Assembly (NCBI GenBank): GCA_021828375.1
Contig: JAKARS010000001.1
Span: 91,822 to 125,349, forward strand
DNA length: 33,528 nucleotides
Source: Nitrospirota bacterium
GTDB lineage: Bacteria; Nitrospirota; Leptospirillia; Leptospirillales; Leptospirillaceae
Reading direction: 5' to 3'
In this document: positions 7,395 to 18,227 of the stretch, piece after piece
How the letters are laid out: each line of letters opens with the position of its first letter
Position numbering within the stretch: position 1 is the stretch's first letter
Made by a program: the position numbers and the translations under genes
The notes under the pieces: model-generated
Databases searched by the model: none
Told to the model about the DNA's origin: nothing
Seen by the model: the letters and a program-made list of their open reading frames with translations, nothing else

Positions 7395-9164
7395 GTGCCC
7401 GAAGGAGTTGTATCCGAGATTGTGACCCGTGCCATAAGGATGGCAGGGGCGCAGAACTCATGGCCCCAGGATGTTCTTGACCGGGCTCTTGCCCGGGGGG
7501 TCCGGCTTGAATGGCCAAAGAAGGAAGAGTTTGGAGATCTTTCCACCCCCATGGCCATGTCCTTGGCCAAGGATATGGGAAAGCCTCCCCGCCATGTCGC
7601 CGGGACAATTCTTGAGTCCCTTCGGCAAATCCCTGAAACCTTGTCATTGTTTTCCAAGGTCGACATCGCCGGACCGGGATATCTCAACTTTTTCTTTTCC
7701 TCCCCCTATTTCTCCGATTTCCTTGTTCAGTGCCTGTCTGGCTCAGCTCTTGTCGATCGGGTCGCTATTCCCAAAAAGATCAATGTCGAGTTTGTGAGCG
7801 CCAACCCGACTGGCCCCTTGCATGTGGGGCATGGCCGCGGAGCAGCCTTTGGTGATTCTCTGGCCCGGATCCTTCGGGAAGTCGGCCATGACGTCTCCAC
7901 CGAGTATTATATAAACGACGCCGGGAACCAGATGAATATGCTGGGAAAATCAGTCTATCTGGCCTTCCGGAAGCTGACAGGCCATGAATCATCCGAAGAG
8001 AAAGTTCGGTTGTTGGGCGATACGGAGGGATACCGAGGAGACTACATCGCCGGCATTGCCAAGGAGATTCTCGACAACCCCAGAGGACTTCCCGAGGATC
8101 TTCGGGAGGACGTCCTGGCCGGACGCTTTACCGATCAGGTCCAGTCGTTTTTTACCGATGCTTCCCAGCGTCGCATCATGGAGGGGATCCGGGAGGATCT
8201 CGATCAGTTTGGTGTGACCTTCGATCGTTACTTTTCCGAGAAAACCCTCCATGAGAAGGGAACTGACGGACTCTCCGCCATCGCCCGATGGTTGGCCCGT
8301 CTTGAAAAAGAGTCTGACGGAGCTGTCTACGCCTCAGACGGGGCGCTTTGGTTCCGGACAACGGCCATGGCTGACGACAAGGATCGTGTTTTGCGAAAGT
8401 CTGATGGATCCTATACCTATTTTGCGGCTGATATTGCTTATCATGCCGATAAGGTTGACCGGGGTTATGACATCATGGTGGATGTCTGGGGGGCTGATCA
8501 CCATGGTTACCAGGCTCGCATGCAGGCAGTGGCAAAGGTCTTGTCCGAGCGGGCAAAACGGCAGGTCGACCTGAAGATCTGTCTCATTCAGCTTGTCTCC
8601 CTCCTGCGGGATGGAAAAGCCGTCAGCATGTCCACTCGTGCCGGAGAGTTTGTGACGCTGGCGGAGGTTCTCGATGAGGTCGGTGTCGATGCCACACGCT
8701 TCTCCTATCTGACCCGAAGCCATGAATCGGCTCTGGAGTTTGACCTGTCAAAGGCCAAAGAGCGATCCATGGATAACCCGGTCTATTATGTTCAGTATGC
8801 CCATGCCCGGGTTAAAAGTCTGCTCGCCCAGGCCAACTCGCGGGGAGTGGAGGTCGGAGAGTTCCATCCGAAGGACTTCTCCCCCCTTGAGGAGCCGGCC
8901 GCCCGTTCCCTGATTCGTCTCATGGCCCAGTTTTCCGGAGTGCTTCATCGGGCCGCAGAGTCCTTTGAGGTCCACCCCCTGACGGACTATCTGACGGCCT
9001 TGGCAGGGGCCTACCATCATTATTACTTTCACCACAGAATCCTCTCAGCGGAAGATGCGGATCGACCGGTTATGATGGCGAGAATTGGCCTCTCCATGGC
9101 GGTGGGACGAATTCTGGCATCAGGTCTTGCCCTTCTGGGTGTCCGAGCTCCGGATTCCATGTGA
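7395..9164 (+). CDS. argS: Arginyl-tRNA synthetase
   Basis: Class I aminoacyl-tRNA synthetase charging tRNA-Arg. The 589-aa protein has an N-terminal Arg-tRNA recognition domain (1-90), the HIGH-type motif HVGH at 143-146 within NPTGPLHVGHGRG, a KMSKS-region equivalent at DGKAVSMSTR and a C-terminal anticodon-binding DALR domain (LMAQFSGVLHRAAESFEVHPLTDYL region). It starts with GTG at 7395, preceded by GGAG; the nearby ATG at 7384 is in another frame. The gene is 12 bases after tsaD and its TGA overlaps the GTG of tgt, consistent with a shared transcript for tRNA charging and modification. Confidence 0.96.
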   Translation: MPEGVVSEIVTRAIRMAGAQNSWPQDVLDRALARGVRLEWPKKEEFGDLSTPMAMSLAKDMGKPPRHVAGTILESLRQIPETLSLFSKVDIAGPGYLNFFFSSPYFSDFLVQCLSGSALVDRVAIPKKINVEFVSANPTGPLHVGHGRGAAFGDSLARILREVGHDVSTEYYINDAGNQMNMLGKSVYLAFRKLTGHESSEEKVRLLGDTEGYRGDYIAGIAKEILDNPRGLPEDLREDVLAGRFTDQVQSFFTDASQRRIMEGIREDLDQFGVTFDRYFSEKTLHEKGTDGLSAIARWLARLEKESDGAVYASDGALWFRTTAMADDKDRVLRKSDGSYTYFAADIAYHADKVDRGYDIMVDVWGADHHGYQARMQAVAKVLSERAKRQVDLKICLIQLVSLLRDGKAVSMSTRAGEFVTLAEVLDEVGVDATRFSYLTRSHESALEFDLSKAKERSMDNPVYYVQYAHARVKSLLAQANSRGVEVGEFHPKDFSPLEEPAARSLIRLMAQFSGVLHRAAESFEVHPLTDYLTALAGAYHHYYFHHRILSAEDADRPVMMARIGLSMAVGRILASGLALLGVRAPDSM

Positions 9165-10312
9165 CGGGCTCCCCGTTTTTTCAGCACCTTTCCTCCGATC
9201 GCTCCTCCCTTGCCAGGGAAGGCGTGATCAGGACTCGCCATGGGGCCGTTCCCACTCCGGCCTTCATGCCCGTGGGAACCCGCGGAACGGTCAAGGGGCT
9301 GACCCCCGAAACCCTGTCGGCCTGTGGGGCAGAGATCGTCCTTGTCAACGCCTTCCATCTCTGGCTTCGACCCGGAACGGAGAGGGTTCGGGAGGCGGGG
9401 GGGATCGGCCGGATGATGGGTGTCGACTGTCCCATTCTCTCCGACAGCGGAGGGTACCAAGTCCATAGCCTTGAGACCCGCAGGACGGTGACGGAGGAAG
9501 GAGTCTCCTTTCTGTCGCCCTACGATGGCGCCAAGGTCTTTCTGTCTCCCGAGATCTCCGTGGCCCACTCGGAGGCTCTGGGTGTGGATATTCGGATGGT
9601 TCTCGACGACCTTGCCGGTGCAGCCGCTCCCTCCGAAAGAATTCGCGAGGCAATGGAACGGACTCACCGGTGGGCCCTTCGGGCACTCAATGCATGGGAT
9701 CCGGAAACGACGGCGCCCCTCTTCGGAATCGTCCAAGGCGGAGTCGATCGGGCTCTGCGTGAGGAGAGCGCCCAAGGCCTCGTTTCTTTGGCCGGCTCCC
9801 AGGGCCAATCCTTTTCAGGATTCGGAATCGGAGGGCTGGGCGTCGGTGAAACCGTGGAGGAGAGACTTTCAGTTCTTGATGCCACTGTTCCCATTCTTCC
9901 GGAGGATCGCCCTCGCTACCTGATGGGCGTCGGGTATCCAGGGGACATTCTTGAGGCCGTGCGTCGGGGCGTGGACCTTTTTGATTGCGTCCTCCCCACG
10001 CGAAATGCCAGAAACGGGAGTTACTTCACCCGTGAAGGGGCCATCGCGATTCGGAACGCCCGCTTTCGGGAGGACGATCGTCCGATCGACCCCTCCTGTG
10101 GCTGTGCAACCTGCCGACGCCACTCCCGGGCCTACCTCCATCACCTTGTGAAAAACGATGAGATGACTGGGGCGATCCTGGGAACAATTCACAATGTATC
10201 GTTTTATCTTGAGATCATGCGCGAAATTCGGGCCCGCATTCGCTCCGGAACACTTTCCGGACTTGACTGGCCCTGCTTTACCACACGTCATGCCACTGGA
10301 GGAGACTCGTGA
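9161..10312 (+). CDS. tgt: tRNA-guanine transglycosylase
   Basis: Exchanges G34 in the wobble position of tRNA-Asp, -Asn, -His and -Tyr for preQ1 or a related base on the queuosine pathway. Catalytic Asp95 in LSDSGGYQ, nucleophile Asp275 in VDLFDCVLPTRNARNG, zinc ligands Cys313, Cys315, Cys318 and His344 (CGCATC...IHN) and VGGL-type GIGGLGVGE near 222-230 are all present; length 383 aa is normal. Odd point: the preQ1-pocket motif, usually FDEC in bacteria, reads LDDL here, so the specificity cysteine (Cys158 in Zymomonas numbering) is Leu151, closer to the LDDV of eukaryotic queuine enzymes. GTG start at 9161 overlaps the argS stop and the 3' end overlaps yajC. Confidence 0.94.
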   Translation: MTGSPFFQHLSSDRSSLAREGVIRTRHGAVPTPAFMPVGTRGTVKGLTPETLSACGAEIVLVNAFHLWLRPGTERVREAGGIGRMMGVDCPILSDSGGYQVHSLETRRTVTEEGVSFLSPYDGAKVFLSPEISVAHSEALGVDIRMVLDDLAGAAAPSERIREAMERTHRWALRALNAWDPETTAPLFGIVQGGVDRALREESAQGLVSLAGSQGQSFSGFGIGGLGVGETVEERLSVLDATVPILPEDRPRYLMGVGYPGDILEAVRRGVDLFDCVLPTRNARNGSYFTREGAIAIRNARFREDDRPIDPSCGCATCRRHSRAYLHHLVKNDEMTGAILGTIHNVSFYLEIMREIRARIRSGTLSGLDWPCFTTRHATGGDS

Positions 10313-10608
10313 ATACCCAAGCCCCGGCCGGTTCGTCGGCCCAGACCCTCATGCAGATCGTTCCCATCCTGCTTATCGTCGTGCTTTTTTATGCACTGGT
10401 GATCATGCCCCAAAAGAAACGCCAGAAGAAAATGGCCGAATTCCTCTCGGCCCTCAAGGTCGGAGATCGTGTGGTGACCGGAGGAGGGCTTGTGGGAACA
10501 ATAACGGCCATCGGTGAAAAGGAGATCTCCCTCGAGATTGCCCCCGGTGTCGTCATTACCGTCATGCGACAGGCCGTGCTGGCTTTGGCGGGAGAGAGTC
10601 TGTCCTGA
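10309..10608 (+). CDS. yajC: Preprotein translocase subunit YajC
   Basis: Small inner-membrane partner of the SecDF complex. The 99-aa protein has one membrane span (about residues 14-34, MQIVPILLIVVLFYALVIM), the diagnostic PQKKRQKK basic stretch just inside and a C-terminal cytosolic beta domain (VGDRVVTGGGLVGTI). It starts with GTG at 10309 overlapping the tgt stop, with GGAGGA upstream. The order tgt-yajC-secD-secF is conserved widely in bacteria and supports the call. Confidence 0.95.
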   Translation: MNTQAPAGSSAQTLMQIVPILLIVVLFYALVIMPQKKRQKKMAEFLSALKVGDRVVTGGGLVGTITAIGEKEISLEIAPGVVITVMRQAVLALAGESLS

Positions 10609-10661
10609 CCGAAACATCGTAATGTTGGTTCGTCTTACCCATCCCCGGAGAACAGTCGGTC

Positions 10662-12233
10662 ATGCATAAAAAAAGCGTGCGCGGGCGCATTTTGCTCCTG
10701 ATCACATTCACACTTCTGTCCCTTGTTTTTCTTCTTCCCTCGCTTCCGGTCTGGAACTCATTGCCCCCAGGGGTGAAAAAGGTTCTTCCGGATGGGGCAA
10801 TCTCCTTGGGGCTCGACCTGCGGGGGGGCATGTCTGTCACCCTTCAGGTGATGGAGGAGAAGGCCATTTCCGGAACGCTGACGGAAATCGTTGCCGGCCT
10901 CTCCGAAAAAGGAGTCCATGCACAGGTGCAGGGGACATCCATCACCGCATCCTTTGACACTCCCGCCAAGAAGAAGGAGATCCTCGACTACCTCGCAAGC
11001 CGGGCCCCCTTCATGAAAAAGACACAGGAGACTCCGGGGACATTGACCCTTTCCCTCTCCGATGCCGAGGCGGCCCGGATCCGGAAGCATGCCATGACCC
11101 AGGCGATCGAGGTCATCCGAAATCGCATCGATCAGTTTGGCGTTTCAGAGCCTGTCATCGAGCAGCAGGGACGTGATCGCATCCTGATCCAGCTTCCCGG
11201 AGTGACCGATCCGGAGCGTGCGATGGCCCTGATTGGTCGGACCGCCCGCCTTGAGTTCAATCTGGCCGATGATTCCACCGATCCCGCCCTTTACACCTCC
11301 GGCAAGACCCCTCTTCCCCCCGGCGACGAGATCCTCTACGGAAATGCTTCCGCAAAGTCGGGAGGGTCCCGTATCCCTTACCTTTTGAAATCCGTTCCCC
11401 TCATGGGAGGAGATACGATCAGTGATGCCCGGGTGGCCTTTGGACAGTTCAACGAACCCTATGTCTCCCTGACCTTCAACAGCACCGGGGCCAAACTCTT
11501 TGATCGGATCACGAAAGACCACGTCAAGGAGCGTCTGGCGATCGTCCTTGACAAAACGGTCTACTCTGCCCCGGTGATCCAGGAGGAAATTTCCGGAGGG
11601 CAGGCCCAGATTACCGGAAGCTTCTCCCTGAAAGAGGCCAAGGACCTGGCCATCGTTCTTCGATCCGGGGCCCTTCCTGCTCCGGTCCGGATCCTCCAGA
11701 ATGTGACCGTCGGTCCTTCTTTGGGGAAGGATTCCATCCGTGCAGGCCTTCATGCCACACTCATTGCCCTTCTTCTGGTGTTGGCTTTCATGGCGGTCTA
11801 CTATCGGTTGTCCGGAGTCGTGGCCGACTTTGCCCTCATGCTCAACATGCTGTTTCTTCTGGGCGCCATGGCGGCCCTGCATGCGACGTTGACCCTTCCG
11901 GGAATCGCCGGTGTCATCCTGACGGTGGGAATGGGCGTTGACTCGAATGTCCTGATCTTCGAGCGCATCCGGGAGGAGTTGCGGGCCGGCAAGCCCGTTC
12001 GCTCTTCCATCGACTCGGGCTACGACAAGGCCTTCCTGACCATCGTCGACTCCCATGTCACGACACTGATTACGGCGATCATTCTCTTTATTTTCGGAAC
12101 GGGTCCCATCAAGGGGTTTGCCGTGACCTTGACGGTGGGAATCGCCATCAACCTCTTTACCTCCCTGGCCGGGACCCGTATCGTCTTTGACCTCCTGGCG
12201 CGCCGGTCGAAGCTCGAACGGCTGTCGATATGA
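10662..12233 (+). CDS. secD: Protein translocase subunit SecD
   Basis: RND-family membrane protein that uses the proton gradient with SecF to pull exported proteins across the inner membrane after SecYEG. The 523-aa product has an N-terminal span (about 8-28), LGLDLRGGMSVTLQV at the start of the large periplasmic P1 domain, AIEVIRNRIDQFGVSEPVI (hallmark), and five spans between about 350 and 515 containing GMGVDSNVLIFERIREEL. ATG at 10662 has CGGAGA upstream. It is separated from yajC by 53 bases that hold nothing more than a short weak hairpin, and from secF by 28 bases. Confidence 0.96.
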   Translation: MHKKSVRGRILLLITFTLLSLVFLLPSLPVWNSLPPGVKKVLPDGAISLGLDLRGGMSVTLQVMEEKAISGTLTEIVAGLSEKGVHAQVQGTSITASFDTPAKKKEILDYLASRAPFMKKTQETPGTLTLSLSDAEAARIRKHAMTQAIEVIRNRIDQFGVSEPVIEQQGRDRILIQLPGVTDPERAMALIGRTARLEFNLADDSTDPALYTSGKTPLPPGDEILYGNASAKSGGSRIPYLLKSVPLMGGDTISDARVAFGQFNEPYVSLTFNSTGAKLFDRITKDHVKERLAIVLDKTVYSAPVIQEEISGGQAQITGSFSLKEAKDLAIVLRSGALPAPVRILQNVTVGPSLGKDSIRAGLHATLIALLLVLAFMAVYYRLSGVVADFALMLNMLFLLGAMAALHATLTLPGIAGVILTVGMGVDSNVLIFERIREELRAGKPVRSSIDSGYDKAFLTIVDSHVTTLITAIILFIFGTGPIKGFAVTLTVGIAINLFTSLAGTRIVFDLLARRSKLERLSI

Positions 12234-12261
12234 TGTCCACCTCCATCGGGAGACCTCACCC

Positions 12262-13209
12262 ATGTTCGAACTGATCCGCAATCCCTCCATTGACTTCATG
12301 GGAAAGAAGAAAATTTCCCTGGGGCTTTCATCCCTTCTGGTTCTGATCGGTCTCTTTGCCCTGCTCCAGATTGCCCGGGGGCAGGCCAACCTGGGAATCG
12401 ACTTTACGGGGGGAACGGCCCTTCTCGTCCATTTTGAGCGCCCCGAACCCATTTCCGAAGTCCGAACCGTCCTTTCCGGCAATGGTTTTTCCGGGGCCCA
12501 GATCCAGAATGTCAACGGAACCTCCGATCTGTTCATTCGGGTGAAGGCCCGAAGCGAGTCGGCCCACTCGGTGACAGAGTCGATCCTGGCCCTTCTCCAT
12601 GGACATTTTGCCGGGAATCCCCTGACCATCCGCCAGTCGATCGAGATCGGTCCGACGATCGGCAGCGAGCTAGCCGGCAAGGCTCTTGTGGCGATCTTCT
12701 TCTCCCTGGTCGGCTTCATTCTCTACATTGCCGTGCGTTTCGAGTTCCGTTTTGGCCTGGCCGCCGCGATCTCCACCTTCCATAACGTCATCGCGGTTCT
12801 CGGAATCCTCTATCTTCTCCATGTCGAGATCAACCTTCTGATCGTCACAAGCCTGTTGACCTTGGCGGGATACTCCCTGACCGACACCGTGGTCGTCTTC
12901 GACCGGATTCGGGAACAGATGCGCCGATCCGTCCGTCAGACTCCGGAGGCGCTGATCAACTCAGGGATCAATCAGGTGCTCTCGCGGACGGTTGTGGTAT
13001 CATTAACAGTGGAGCTCGTGCTTTTTGCGCTCCTGATCGGTGGGGGGCCTGTCATCCACGACTTTTCGCTGGCCCTTTTTATCGGCGTTCTGGTCGGGAC
13101 CTACGCCTCCATCTTTGTGGCGAGCCCTCTCCTGCTGATCCTGCCGGGCCGCAGGAAAGGATTGGGGTTTGCGCCGCGGAAACCGGCTCCGGAAAAGAAC
13201 GGGGTCTGA
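12262..13209 (+). CDS. secF: Protein translocase subunit SecF
   Basis: Second half of the SecDF export motor. The 315-aa protein has a first span at about 20-37, GIDFTGGTALLVHF beginning the periplasmic domain, and five C-terminal spans with GYSLTDTVVVFDRIRE, the SecF equivalent of the SecD RND motif. An in-frame start 25 codons upstream lies inside secD; I prefer ATG 12262 because it gives the family N terminus (MFELI...NPSIDFMGKKK) and has GGGAG upstream. The stop codon borders a small hairpin with a T-run (13209-13226) that may partly end the transcript. Confidence 0.95.
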   Translation: MFELIRNPSIDFMGKKKISLGLSSLLVLIGLFALLQIARGQANLGIDFTGGTALLVHFERPEPISEVRTVLSGNGFSGAQIQNVNGTSDLFIRVKARSESAHSVTESILALLHGHFAGNPLTIRQSIEIGPTIGSELAGKALVAIFFSLVGFILYIAVRFEFRFGLAAAISTFHNVIAVLGILYLLHVEINLLIVTSLLTLAGYSLTDTVVVFDRIREQMRRSVRQTPEALINSGINQVLSRTVVVSLTVELVLFALLIGGGPVIHDFSLALFIGVLVGTYASIFVASPLLLILPGRRKGLGFAPRKPAPEKNGV

Positions 13210-13226
13210 CCCGTTAGACGGGTTTT
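13209..13226 (+). terminator. Short hairpin with T-run after secF
   Basis: ACCCGT, loop TAG, ACGGGT followed by TTT forms a six-base-pair stem immediately after the secF stop codon. The stem is short, so it is at best a weak or partial rho-independent terminator before the small membrane ORF and recJ. Confidence 0.35.
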
Positions 13227-13244
13227 GGGGAAAGGAACAGTCTG

Positions 13245-13355
13245 GTGCAGGGTGGTATCGACATTTCGGAGGTTCTTGGAAGCATCGGCCTTTTTGTGTT
13301 GCCGCCGGTGACGGTTCTCGTCATTCTTTACCTCAAGAAGAAGAATGTCATCTGA
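13245..13355 (+). CDS. Small single-span membrane peptide between secF and recJ (36 aa)
   Basis: A 37-codon frame starts with GTG at 13245, preceded by AAAGGAA seven bases upstream, and ends with TGA at 13353-13355. The peptide begins MQGGIDISEVLGS, has a continuous hydrophobic stretch (about residues 12-30, IGLFVLPPVTVLVILYL with a central Pro-Pro) and ends KKKNVI, the layout expected for a single-span protein with its C terminus in the cytosol. It lies 35 bases after secF. I recognise no family. The good ribosome site, the coherent hydrophobic design and the otherwise unexplained 209-bp gap support it; the tiny size and GTG start keep confidence moderate. Position suggests a link to SecDF, but that is only inference. 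Confidence 0.5.
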   Translation: MQGGIDISEVLGSIGLFVLPPVTVLVILYLKKKNVI

Positions 13356-13418
13356 AGTGTGTCCGGGAGGGCGGTCGGATGACCTCCCCCCGCGCTTCCA
13401 CATGGCAGGAGAGTTCCT

Positions 13419-15086
13419 ATGATGGACACATCTTCTCGCCGTCAGGCGATTCGTGACTGGGATGTTCAGGATACAGACGAATCCAGCGTCTATGCCCTCT
13501 CTCGGGCATGGGGGCTCGATCCGGTCTGGGTTCGGGTTCTCCTTGGCCGAGGAATCGACAAAAGATCTTATGAAAGGGATATTACTGCGCCGGGTCCTCC
13601 GGGAGACGACTCCCTGGGGGAGATGACAGAACCCCGGGCGTGGTTTCATGACCTTCTCTCTTCCGGAGAGCCGGTGCTCGTCTATGCGGATCTTGATGTT
13701 GACGGTCTCTCCTCCGCCGCCATCCTCTCCCGCTTCTTTCGTCTCCGCCATCATTCCCATGCCGTTCTTCTTGCCAATCGCGAGGACGGCCGATCTCTCC
13801 TTCCCTCCCGGATCCGACCCTTCCAGAAGAAGGGATTCCGGAGGATCATCGTCTGCGACATGGGGACATCGAGTGCCGATGTCCTTCGGATGCTTCTGGG
13901 GGAGGGGATGTCCTGCCTGGTGGTGGATCACCACCTCGTTCCCGAGGAGTGGCCCCGCCACTCCGTCCCTCTTGTCCACCCTTCCGGCCGATCGGCCCTG
14001 ACCTCTGCCGGGGCGGCCTATACCCTCATCCGTCCCTACCTCTCTTCGGAAGAGGAGCCGCAGATGGCCTTTCTTGCGGGCCTCTCCGTCCTGGGCGACC
14101 GGGCACCGCTCATTCGGGAGAATCGCTACCTTACCCTGTCCCTCCTCTCCGAAGAGACGCTGGCCGTCTTTCCCGGAATTCGTCTCCTCCTTCGCCGGCG
14201 AGTGCGTCGCGCTCCGATTGTCAGCGACTACTCTTTCGGGGTGATCCCTTTCCTGAATGCCCCGGGGCGCATGGGGGATCCCTCCCCCTCGTTTGACCTT
14301 CTCATGTCGTCTTCTGCCGGGGAGTCCGAAAAGACCGTGGCCGTTCTTCTCGAGATGAACCGTCGCCGACAGGAGCTTGAGTGGCTTCTTTACGAAGAGA
14401 TCCGCCGCAAGGGACCCGAAGAATTTGTCTTCTTCGACAAGGACTGGTTTCCCGGGGTCTTGGGGCGTGTCGCCCATCGGGTTTCGGAGGAATGGAACCG
14501 AACCGTTTTCGTGGGAACCATGACCGCATCCTTTACGATCCGGGGGTCGATACGCTGCCGGAACGCAGATCGCTTTTCTGATATCATGGCAGCCCTTTCC
14601 GGTCTCCCGATCACGGGGGGCGGTCACCCCATGGCCGGGGGGCTCGAGTTTCCGGCCGATCTCCTTCCGGAGGTCTCCCGCCGCCTTTCCCGGGTGCTCA
14701 ACACCTCTCCCCTGAACTCCGAGGGAGGGACGATGGAGGGGACGGACGATCGGGATCCCTTGAGAATCGATGCCTTTCTTCCCGCCTACTTCAGAAATCC
14801 GATCTTCTGGGAGGGATACCGAAAGCTCTTTCCCTTTGGGGAAGGTTTTTCCCGTCCCCTTTTCGGGGTCCGACGGGCCCGGATCGAAAGGCTGGAAGAG
14901 GGAAACGGGAAGATGCAGGCCTGTGCCTATCGATGGCGGCATGGGAGCGGCCGGGCCTTTTTTCGGGAAGGGGAGGCGGTCCTCTCCCCCGGGCAGGACT
15001 ATGATCTTGTTGTAACCCCCGAGATTCGGGGCAAGGGAGATTATCTTGAGCGCCTCTTCGTTGTCGCCGATTACCGACCGGCCTGA
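13419..15086 (+). CDS. recJ: Single-stranded-DNA-specific exonuclease RecJ (DHH family)
   Basis: 5'-3' single-strand exonuclease of recombination and mismatch or base-excision repair, using Mn/Mg. The 555-aa protein has DHH motif I as DLDVDG (91-96), motif II Asp147 in VCDMG (family usually DNG or DxG), motif III DHH at 170-172, motif IV Asp227 in LGDRAP, and the DHHA1 motif GGGHPMAGG with His403; a C-terminal OB-like domain follows. Overall similarity is plainly RecJ but several motifs are looser than in E. coli (LGDRAP where VADVxP is usual). ATG 13419 is followed by a second ATG, with AGGAGAG upstream. Its last 41 bases overlap the start of the rel gene. Confidence 0.88.
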   Translation: MMDTSSRRQAIRDWDVQDTDESSVYALSRAWGLDPVWVRVLLGRGIDKRSYERDITAPGPPGDDSLGEMTEPRAWFHDLLSSGEPVLVYADLDVDGLSSAAILSRFFRLRHHSHAVLLANREDGRSLLPSRIRPFQKKGFRRIIVCDMGTSSADVLRMLLGEGMSCLVVDHHLVPEEWPRHSVPLVHPSGRSALTSAGAAYTLIRPYLSSEEEPQMAFLAGLSVLGDRAPLIRENRYLTLSLLSEETLAVFPGIRLLLRRRVRRAPIVSDYSFGVIPFLNAPGRMGDPSPSFDLLMSSSAGESEKTVAVLLEMNRRRQELEWLLYEEIRRKGPEEFVFFDKDWFPGVLGRVAHRVSEEWNRTVFVGTMTASFTIRGSIRCRNADRFSDIMAALSGLPITGGGHPMAGGLEFPADLLPEVSRRLSRVLNTSPLNSEGGTMEGTDDRDPLRIDAFLPAYFRNPIFWEGYRKLFPFGEGFSRPLFGVRRARIERLEEGNGKMQACAYRWRHGSGRAFFREGEAVLSPGQDYDLVVTPEIRGKGDYLERLFVVADYRPA

Positions 15087-17304
15087 CTCCTTCCCTGAAT
15101 CAATCCACCCTCCCCGGGAGGGAGAGCTCACGATCGAGAACCTGATCGAGGCGGTTTCTTCCTACAACCCCAACCCCGAAGCCCTCGACCTTCTCCGCAA
15201 GGCATACTCCCTGGCGCTCAAGTCCCATGAAGGCCAGCGCCGTCAGTCGGGGGAGTCCTATATCCACCATCCCCTTTCCGTGGCCATGATCCTGGCCGAC
15301 ATGAAGGTCGACACCCAGTCGCTCGTGACGGCCCTTCTCCACGACACCCTGGAAGACACCTCCCTCACTCCCGAAGAGATCGAGTCCACTTTTGGCAAGA
15401 AGGTTCTCCAGCTCATCGATGGCGTGACCAAGATCGGAAAGTTCCACTTCAAGAAGTCCCGGGCCGAAAAGCAGGCGGAGAACTTCCGGAAGATGCTTCT
15501 TTCCATGGCCGAAGACATCCGGGTTCTTCTCGTCAAGCTGGCCGACCGCCTCCACAACATGCGCACCATCGAATGGCTTGATCCGGCCAAGCAACGCTCC
15601 ATTGCCCAGGAGACCCTCGATATCTATGCCCCTCTGGCCAATCGTCTGGGAATCGGGTGGATCAAGCTCGAACTCGAGGACCTCTCCTTTCGGGCGCTCG
15701 ATCCGGAGACGTTTTCCGACCTTCGGGCCCGTGTGGCAAAGAAGCGCCGGGAGAGCAAGAACTATATCGACCAGATAGTCCGGAGCGTGACCCGCGTCCT
15801 TCAGGAGAATGGCGTTCCCGGACGGGTTATCGGCCGCTACAAGCATATTTACAGCATCTATCGCAAGATGACCATGCAGGAAATCCCCTTTGACGAAATC
15901 TACGACCTGATGGGGATCCGGGTCATCACCGACTCCAAGCTCCACTGCTATGGCATCCTGGGCCTGCTTCACGGAATGTACAAGCCGATGACGGGGCGGA
16001 TCAAGGACTTCATTGCCGTTCCGAAGTCCAACATGTACCAATCCCTCCATACGACCGTGATCGGACCCGAAGGGGTCCTGATCGAGTTCCAGATCCGGAC
16101 CGAAGAAATGCACCGGGTGGCGGAAGAGGGGGTGGCCGCCCACTGGAACTACAAGGAAAATGCCGACGGAGCGCCGGCGCTCTCCGATCTCCAGATCGTC
16201 ACTTGGCTTCGGCAGCTGGTGGAGTGGCAGAAGGAGCTTTCCGACAACCACGAGTTCATGAACTCCGTGAAGCTCAACCTCTTCCCCGATGAGGTCTATG
16301 TCTTCACGCCCAAGGGGGATGTCCGGGAGATGATCAAGGGCGCCACCGCCATCGACTTTGCCTATGCCATCCATACCGAGGTGGGCCATCGGACGGTGGG
16401 GGCGCGGGTGAATGGGCGATGGGTTCCCATCAAGACCGTTCTCGAGAGCGGGGATGTGGTCGAAATCATCACCAACCCCTCCCAGACCCCCTCCAAGGAC
16501 TGGCTTCGGTTCGTGGCCACCCCCAAGGCCCGGGCCCGGATCCGCCACTGGATCAAGGAGGAGGAGACCCGTCAGGCGGCAGAGATCGGACTTCGGGCTC
16601 TCGAGTCCGAGGCGTCGAAGCTCCACCACCGCTTCAGTGAGTTTACGAAGGGGACACACCTTGAGACCGTCCTTTCCTTCTCGGACCTTCCCGAGCCCAC
16701 CCTGACCGATGTCTACGCCCGGGTGGGCTTCGGACGGCTCCCGGCGTCGGCGGTTTTGCGGAAGCTTTTGCCGGAACAGGCGGAGGAGCCTGCCACCGGG
16801 GTTCCTCCCGTCCACATCGCTCCGACGGTTCCCATCATCGTTCGCGGGGGCGGCAAGGATCTTCTCATGTCCCTGGCACATTGTTGCAGCCCCGTTCCCG
16901 GAGAGGATATCGTGGGGTACGTCTCCCGGGGCCGGGGAATTATCGTCCATACGGCCGATTGTCCCAATCTCATCCATCTGTCCCTGGAGGCGGACCGGAT
17001 CGTTCCTGCCGTCTGGGAGTCCTCGCGGGATGCGATCTTTGATGTCCATCTCCGGGTGTCGATGGAGGACAAGCCGGGGATGCTGGCCGCCGTCTCTGCG
17101 GCGATCAGCGAGCGAGGCGCCAACATCACCCACGCCGAGGTCAAGCAGGCGAAGCACCGGATGGGCGTTCTCGACTTTACCGTAACGGTGGGGAATCTCT
17201 CCCATCTTCAAGAGATCATGGCCCGGGTTCAGCATGTCAAGGGAGTTGTCCGGGTCCAGAGAGTCAAGACACCGAACAATCCGGCCGACGGGTCGGGAGT
17301 CTGA
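15046..17304 (+). CDS. rel: Bifunctional (p)ppGpp synthetase/hydrolase (Rel/SpoT)
   Basis: Makes and degrades the stringent-response alarmone (p)ppGpp. The 752-aa protein has an HD hydrolase domain with His75 and the HD pair at 99-100 plus LVKLADRLHNMRT, so hydrolysis should be active. The synthetase domain (about 240-370) contains RIKD at 318-321, the RxKD form typical of bifunctional enzymes rather than the ExDD of RelA, and EFQIRT near 347-352. TGS (VYVFTPKGDV near 417), a CC domain (AHCCSPVPGEDIVGY) and a C-terminal ACT domain follow. The start is TTG at 15046: AAGGGAGA sits just upstream and no ATG or GTG gives a complete HD domain. It overlaps recJ by 41 bases, and fdhE starts two bases after its stop. 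Confidence 0.94.
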   Translation: MSASSLSPITDRPDSFPESIHPPREGELTIENLIEAVSSYNPNPEALDLLRKAYSLALKSHEGQRRQSGESYIHHPLSVAMILADMKVDTQSLVTALLHDTLEDTSLTPEEIESTFGKKVLQLIDGVTKIGKFHFKKSRAEKQAENFRKMLLSMAEDIRVLLVKLADRLHNMRTIEWLDPAKQRSIAQETLDIYAPLANRLGIGWIKLELEDLSFRALDPETFSDLRARVAKKRRESKNYIDQIVRSVTRVLQENGVPGRVIGRYKHIYSIYRKMTMQEIPFDEIYDLMGIRVITDSKLHCYGILGLLHGMYKPMTGRIKDFIAVPKSNMYQSLHTTVIGPEGVLIEFQIRTEEMHRVAEEGVAAHWNYKENADGAPALSDLQIVTWLRQLVEWQKELSDNHEFMNSVKLNLFPDEVYVFTPKGDVREMIKGATAIDFAYAIHTEVGHRTVGARVNGRWVPIKTVLESGDVVEIITNPSQTPSKDWLRFVATPKARARIRHWIKEEETRQAAEIGLRALESEASKLHHRFSEFTKGTHLETVLSFSDLPEPTLTDVYARVGFGRLPASAVLRKLLPEQAEEPATGVPPVHIAPTVPIIVRGGGKDLLMSLAHCCSPVPGEDIVGYVSRGRGIIVHTADCPNLIHLSLEADRIVPAVWESSRDAIFDVHLRVSMEDKPGMLAAVSAAISERGANITHAEVKQAKHRMGVLDFTVTVGNLSHLQEIMARVQHVKGVVRVQRVKTPNNPADGSGV

Positions 17305-17306
17305 GG

Positions 17307-18227
17307 ATGCCAAGCGATATGGATCAGTCAAAACGGGAAAAACTTCTGGCAGAGCACATGCGGGCTCGCCCTCACCTTCGGGAGATCTTCCAGTTTCTCG
17401 AAAAGATCGAGGAGGTGAGGAATGCCTCGGCTCCGGACGACCTTCTCTCCCTGGTGGACCTTCGGGACGCCTCGGTCAAGGACCGCCTCTCCCGGGGCAT
17501 CCCGTTGATCGACCGTCCGGGCTTTGCCCGGCTTTCCCTTCCCCACACGGGGGGAACCTTCCGAAAGCTTCTGACGGTGATGCGTCAGGGGGGAGGGGAG
17601 CGGGAAGTGTTTGCCTCCCGCATCGCCACCTTCATTCGGAGCGAAGGAGGAGAAGAGGGGGCCGTCATTGCCCGGATTCTCTCCCGGGAGGATGGCTATC
17701 TCGACGGGGTCTCCCAAACCATGGAGGTCCCTCGACCTCTCCTGGTTTTCCTCATCAAGATGTCGCTCCGGAGCTCTTTCGAACGGCTTCACGAGACGCT
17801 GTTGGCCGTTCTCCGGGGATTGGCCTGGGAGTATACCCATTGCCCGGTGTGCGGGGCCCCTCCCGTCATCGGGCAGGCCATGGACAACGACCGTCGCCGT
17901 TATTACTGCTTCTTCTGTTCCTGGCACTGGGAGACCCGTCCCTTGGCCGGATGCCCTTCCTGTGGAGAGATGGACACCGAGCTCTTCAACCTCCTCTACA
18001 AGCATCCCAACGAACACCAGGGACTCCTGGCCTGCGAAAGCTGCGGAACCTATCTCAAAATGGTCGACCAGCGCGAAGGTCCCGATCTGCTGAACCCTGA
18101 CATTCAGGAGATTCTGGGCCTTCACCTCGACATGGCCGCGGGAGAGTTGGGGTTGCGTCCTCTGGGACAACCCCTCTCCCAGGCGGAAACGATCGTCCGT
18201 CCCGGCATCGACGACTATCGCCCCTAA
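17307..18227 (+). CDS. fdhE: FdhE-like formate dehydrogenase accessory protein
   Basis: Zinc/iron-binding protein thought to help mature the catalytic subunit of respiratory formate dehydrogenase in the cytoplasm. The 306-aa product has the family layout: a helical N-terminal half with FxFLEKIEE, and a C-terminal half with four CxxC knuckles at about Cys179/182 (CPVCG), 201/204 (CFFC), 216/219 (CPSCG) and 243/246 (CESC), forming two rubredoxin-like sites; CPVCG...GQ, YYCFFCSWHW and CESCGTYLK match FdhE. ATG 17307 is two bases after the rel stop. No formate dehydrogenase structural gene lies in the window, so its client is unknown here. A 76-aa membrane protein gene follows 24 bases downstream. 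Confidence 0.85.
   Translation: MPSDMDQSKREKLLAEHMRARPHLREIFQFLEKIEEVRNASAPDDLLSLVDLRDASVKDRLSRGIPLIDRPGFARLSLPHTGGTFRKLLTVMRQGGGEREVFASRIATFIRSEGGEEGAVIARILSREDGYLDGVSQTMEVPRPLLVFLIKMSLRSSFERLHETLLAVLRGLAWEYTHCPVCGAPPVIGQAMDNDRRRYYCFFCSWHWETRPLAGCPSCGEMDTELFNLLYKHPNEHQGLLACESCGTYLKMVDQREGPDLLNPDIQEILGLHLDMAAGELGLRPLGQPLSQAETIVRPGIDDYRP

Follow-up and report, generated by a model that had tools for sequence, protein, structure and literature searches.

A conserved single-span microprotein encoded directly after secF in the Leptospirillaceae, a candidate accessory helix for SecDF

Does the gap between secF and recJ in the Leptospirillaceae encode a protein, and might that protein serve the export machinery beside which it is encoded? 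The gap in question lies in a 33,528-nucleotide stretch of DNA from a Nitrospirota bacterium of this family (assembly GCA_021828375.1, contig JAKARS010000001.1, positions 91,822 to 125,349 of the forward strand), hereafter the window. From the letters alone, the first-pass annotation had placed here a short membrane peptide with a good ribosome site. Both the frame and the site are present. Between the secF stop at 13209 and the recJ start near 13419, a frame that we call X runs on the plus strand from a GTG start to a TGA stop (13245..13355) and translates to MQGGIDISEVLGSIGLFVLPPVTVLVILYLKKKNVI, a predicted single-span membrane microprotein of 36 residues. Its ribosome-binding site, AAAGGA (13231..13236, plus strand), is assigned from the sequence and lies 8 nt 5' of the GTG; judged by eye, each of the other 13 genomes that carry the frame also has a purine-rich site ahead of its start.

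X is embedded in a series of plus-strand genes. Upstream lie yajC (10309..10608; PF02699, E 1.8e-27), whose membrane helix resembles X, secD (10662..12233; PF22599, PF21760 and PF02355) and, directly 5' of X, secF (12262..13209; PF02355, E 1.7e-55). Directly 3' of X is recJ (13419..15086; PF01368 and PF02272 above cut-off), followed by a relA/spoT-type gene (15046..17304; profile match and synteny) at which the conserved order ends. This order, tgt-yajC-secD-secF-X-recJ-relA, is kept in the family. The frames of tgt and yajC overlap by four bases (10309-10312), as do those of recJ and relA at 15046-15086 over a longer stretch, and these two overlaps give the cluster the look of a single transcription unit; they also suggest that translation is coupled throughout it. 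A search for terminator-like sites in 12900-13600 gave none.

It is close to certain, judging from the way the sequence varies among relatives, that X is a real, conserved coding gene under purifying selection. The search for SecF covered the window's own genome and 60 relatives, and all 14 family genomes in which secF and its downstream flank are available hold a frame of 36 or 37 residues at the same place. A profile search recovers X in those same 14 of the family's 21 genomes. The seven without a scorable locus are one in which secF is cut at a contig end (G013) and six in which a true SecF match was not found (G001, G005, G006, G007, G011 and G018), and the missing X says little here because all seven genomes are 64-86% complete. 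Variable columns at codon positions 1, 2 and 3 number 7, 1 and 23 of 35 each among eight sequences from the window's genus (Fisher p = 2e-8), and 18, 5 and 34 of 36 each among six other sequences (p = 1e-10); the direction is plain, although the p values do not come from independent events, since the sequences share ancestry. Pairwise dN/dS of X within the genus is 0-0.15, and the window's copy differs from that of one relative (L004) by 13 synonymous changes and no amino-acid change. Neither of the outcomes by which the first-pass annotation would have been refuted, a frame that close relatives lack or substitutions without third-position bias, occurred, and its reading of an actual membrane protein is strongly supported.

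The same observations make it very improbable that the conservation stems from an RNA element or from chance rather than from a protein. Some members of the genus do have a GC-rich hairpin just 3' of X, but an RNA element would sit poorly with the third-position bias and the uniformly open frame, and there is no Rfam match in 9000-17500. The hairpin itself (13364-13392, between X and recJ) lacks a T run. It is also found in L076-L078 and is absent from L080 and L081; its stem sequences differ among members, and its z-scores are only -1.0 to -2.3. It might be a mark of mRNA processing, or it might decouple recJ from the sec genes.

The distribution of X is narrow. Of 395 genomes of the phylum searched with its profile (21 from the family and 374 others), 41 gave matches at E <= 0.1, 16 within the family and 25 outside it; given the number of genomes scanned, the outside matches are taken as chance, and the best of them (E 0.0077) lies in a stretch broken by a stop. 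X was not found outside the family in the 374 other genomes or in one scan of GTDB species contigs. That scan returned 10 X loci, in each of which the gene order is the same up to the contig ends; three of them, L083-L085, match more distant family members. Weak second matches in several family genomes (E 0.03-1) lie mostly inside long frames and were also taken as chance. Within the family X sits after secF in all five genera; tblastn at E 1e-3 misses it in L013-L015, though the frames are present there. Among 35 loci from other families, no X-like frame was found after secF (downstream sequence is short in L023, L029 and L116). A small hydrophobic frame follows secF in 4 of 34 such loci (L103, L109, L114 and L115), and none of these is X-like; the one in L115, a 72-residue frame 3' of secF (145-363 in the secF direction), looks by eye like an ATP synthase c/K subunit. 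In 12 of these 35 loci recJ comes directly after secF, without an X-like frame; the secF-recJ junction is therefore older than X, and the simplest reading is that this lineage gained X.

AlphaFold2 predicts X to be one helix spanning residues 7-32 (mean pLDDT 89.8). Acidic residues precede the span and lysines follow it, so that under the positive-inside rule the protein is probably oriented with its N terminus out and its C terminus in. In a ten-row alignment 13 columns are invariant (E9, V10, L11, G12, S13, G15, L16, F17, L19, P20, L30, K31 and K33), including two of the three C-terminal lysines. The central Pro-Pro that the first-pass annotation had pointed out holds for its first member only: the mid-span P20 is invariant in 14 of 14 genomes, whereas the second proline is Val in the other four genera.

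Searches against known families returned little. No Pfam or NCBIfam model reaches its cut-off for X, the YajC model PF02699 matches none of 10 X members at E <= 10, and the AcrZ family is not among the Pfam matches. Among solved structures, the profile of X matched nothing but a defensin (E 1.5), which we disregarded. The sole recurrent weak family match is CcmD; others are PsbM and a receptor transmembrane model. We consider the chance that X is CcmD, the small subunit of a haem exporter, to be next to negligible. PF04995 picks up four of 10 members (best E 0.012), but the best score is 16.1 bits against a cut-off of 25.6, none of the 21 family genomes passes that cut-off, and the model also gives sub-cut-off matches in 11 of 14 control genomes. 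CcmB, moreover, was found in none of the 21 family genomes, and cytochrome c maturation in this family therefore apparently proceeds without the Ccm (System I) exporter. Because X belongs to none of the Pfam and NCBIfam families searched, family-based annotation is expected to miss it, and our literature searches, which covered titles and abstract openings of open-licence papers, found no report of an X-like protein. X has apparently been overlooked inside a protein-export gene cluster.

Profile comparison suggests a resemblance to the membrane helix of YajC. With hhalign, X aligns to 30 YajC sequences of other families at a probability of 51% (P 1.5e-4), with Pro on Pro and Tyr on Tyr, and to the membrane helix of the family's own YajC at P 7.7e-4. 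When the columns of the YajC helix were permuted, 1 of 200, 1 of 150 and 1 of 600 permutations in three runs were as good as the real score. Profiles of 10 SecD and SecF membrane segments score 5.6-12.2 against 23.7 for YajC, and the maximum among 203 E. coli membrane segments (16.7) is below the median for the 30 single YajC sequences (18.7, range 11.9-22.0); E. coli YajC, which is without the proline, scores only 12.5. HMMER gives no significant match in either direction: the X profile finds YajC at a best E of 0.15, and the reverse search finds X at E 0.85, outranked by four background translations and E. coli YajC, though in one direction the first ten ranks are all YajC sequences. The YajC of its own family is not nearer to X (15.4-20.0) than other YajC are (11.9-22.0), which argues against a recent yajC duplication. 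We regard the likeness as a real similarity of helix design, supported but weak; homology is not established.

In architecture, both YajC and X are small proteins of the same operon with one span, a Pro followed nine residues on by a Tyr, basic residues after it and a probable N-out/C-in topology. They differ in that X has no cytosolic domain, ending 6 residues after the span, and in that its basic end begins 1 residue after the Tyr rather than about 7. Full-length YajC is encoded in addition to X. A YajC chain of 37 residues is present in PDB entry 2rdd_B.

SecDF is a member of the RND superfamily and shares the RND fold. Two small proteins have been placed on another RND transporter: AcrZ of E. 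coli, 49 residues long, binds the pump AcrB, an interaction that P16A abolishes and glycine variants keep (PMC7267776), and a review describes YajC as binding AcrB at a site similar to that of AcrZ, with which it may compete (PMC10710835). The physiological function of YajC has been called unknown (PMC7897499). Because X would be a proline-bent, YajC-like helix encoded after secF, it is most simply read, by analogy with AcrZ and YajC on AcrB, as a belt helix on SecDF. We propose, tentatively and at somewhat short of even chances, that X is an accessory helix of the AcrZ/YajC kind. Translated from the tgt-yajC-secDF-X-recJ-relA cluster and inserted in the membrane, it would form one transmembrane helix with the N terminus outside, the Lys-Lys-Lys end inside and a bend at P20. 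This helix would dock on the outer surface of the SecDF membrane domain, as the AcrZ or YajC helix does on AcrB, and would stabilize or tune the proton-driven export motor, beside YajC or in competition with it. Here topology, partner and effect are all matters that we infer; what ties X to SecDF and YajC is constant synteny and the resemblance to the YajC helix, and motor tuning is a further step beyond these.

The comparison with AcrZ is one of form. Both are single-span proteins under 50 residues with a mid-helix proline, but the similarity of their sequences is at chance level (hhalign P 0.016, with a score reached in 17 of 200 permutations), and homology to AcrZ was rejected. The C terminus of AcrZ is longer than that of X, and its gene is found away from that of its pump, with modE on one side and modA on the other. 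CydX offers a parallel in gene order: the gene for this short protein with one span comes directly after cydAB, which encode the large subunits. CydX differs from X in sequence (score 8.4) and belongs to a different complex.

It is quite possible, if still doubtful, that X is a genuine single-span microprotein for another membrane complex, or for the membrane in general, which merely rides in the operon. Position after secF does not in itself prove partnership with SecDF, and many small subunits could have a span of this kind, kinked at a proline and ending in basic residues, as the weak matches to CcmD, PsbM and the receptor model illustrate. Against a role elsewhere stand the constancy of the position across five genera and a YajC-like order of residues that scores above permuted controls. 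A more specific version of the SecDF proposal is unlikely: that the Leptospirillaceae SecDF carries a second YajC-type helix, with YajC and X each taking one of the two outer faces, related by pseudo-symmetry, that the SecD and SecF halves present. X would then be a YajC anchor minus the cytosolic domain, gained by the lineage at the old secF-recJ junction.

If X does act on SecDF, a lone YajC-like helix, kept by strong selection next to the motor, would separate the role of the helix from that of the cytosolic domain, and the idea that RND-type transporters have small belt helices would reach beyond drug efflux and take in protein export.

Through co-transcription, X could just as well be linked to recJ. 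The stop of X lies only about 10-13 nt from the recJ start in other genera, which makes coupling of the two plausible, but in the window's genus the two are separated by at least about 63 nt. That X is a leader peptide or a translational coupler that sets recJ expression nonetheless seems improbable to us, as its conserved part is the amino-acid sequence, above all the helix. Nor does X resemble Sec arrest peptides of the SecM, MifM or VemP type. Those lie upstream of a sec gene, whereas X, at 36-37 residues, lies downstream of secF and is shorter than the >40 residues after the targeting signal that one arrest-peptide search is described as requiring (PMC7897499). As for the neighboring RecJ (13419-15086), its OB domain falls below the Pfam cut-off (23.4 against 27 bits), and the protein shares only about 24-31% identity with the RecJ of other families over most matched stretches.
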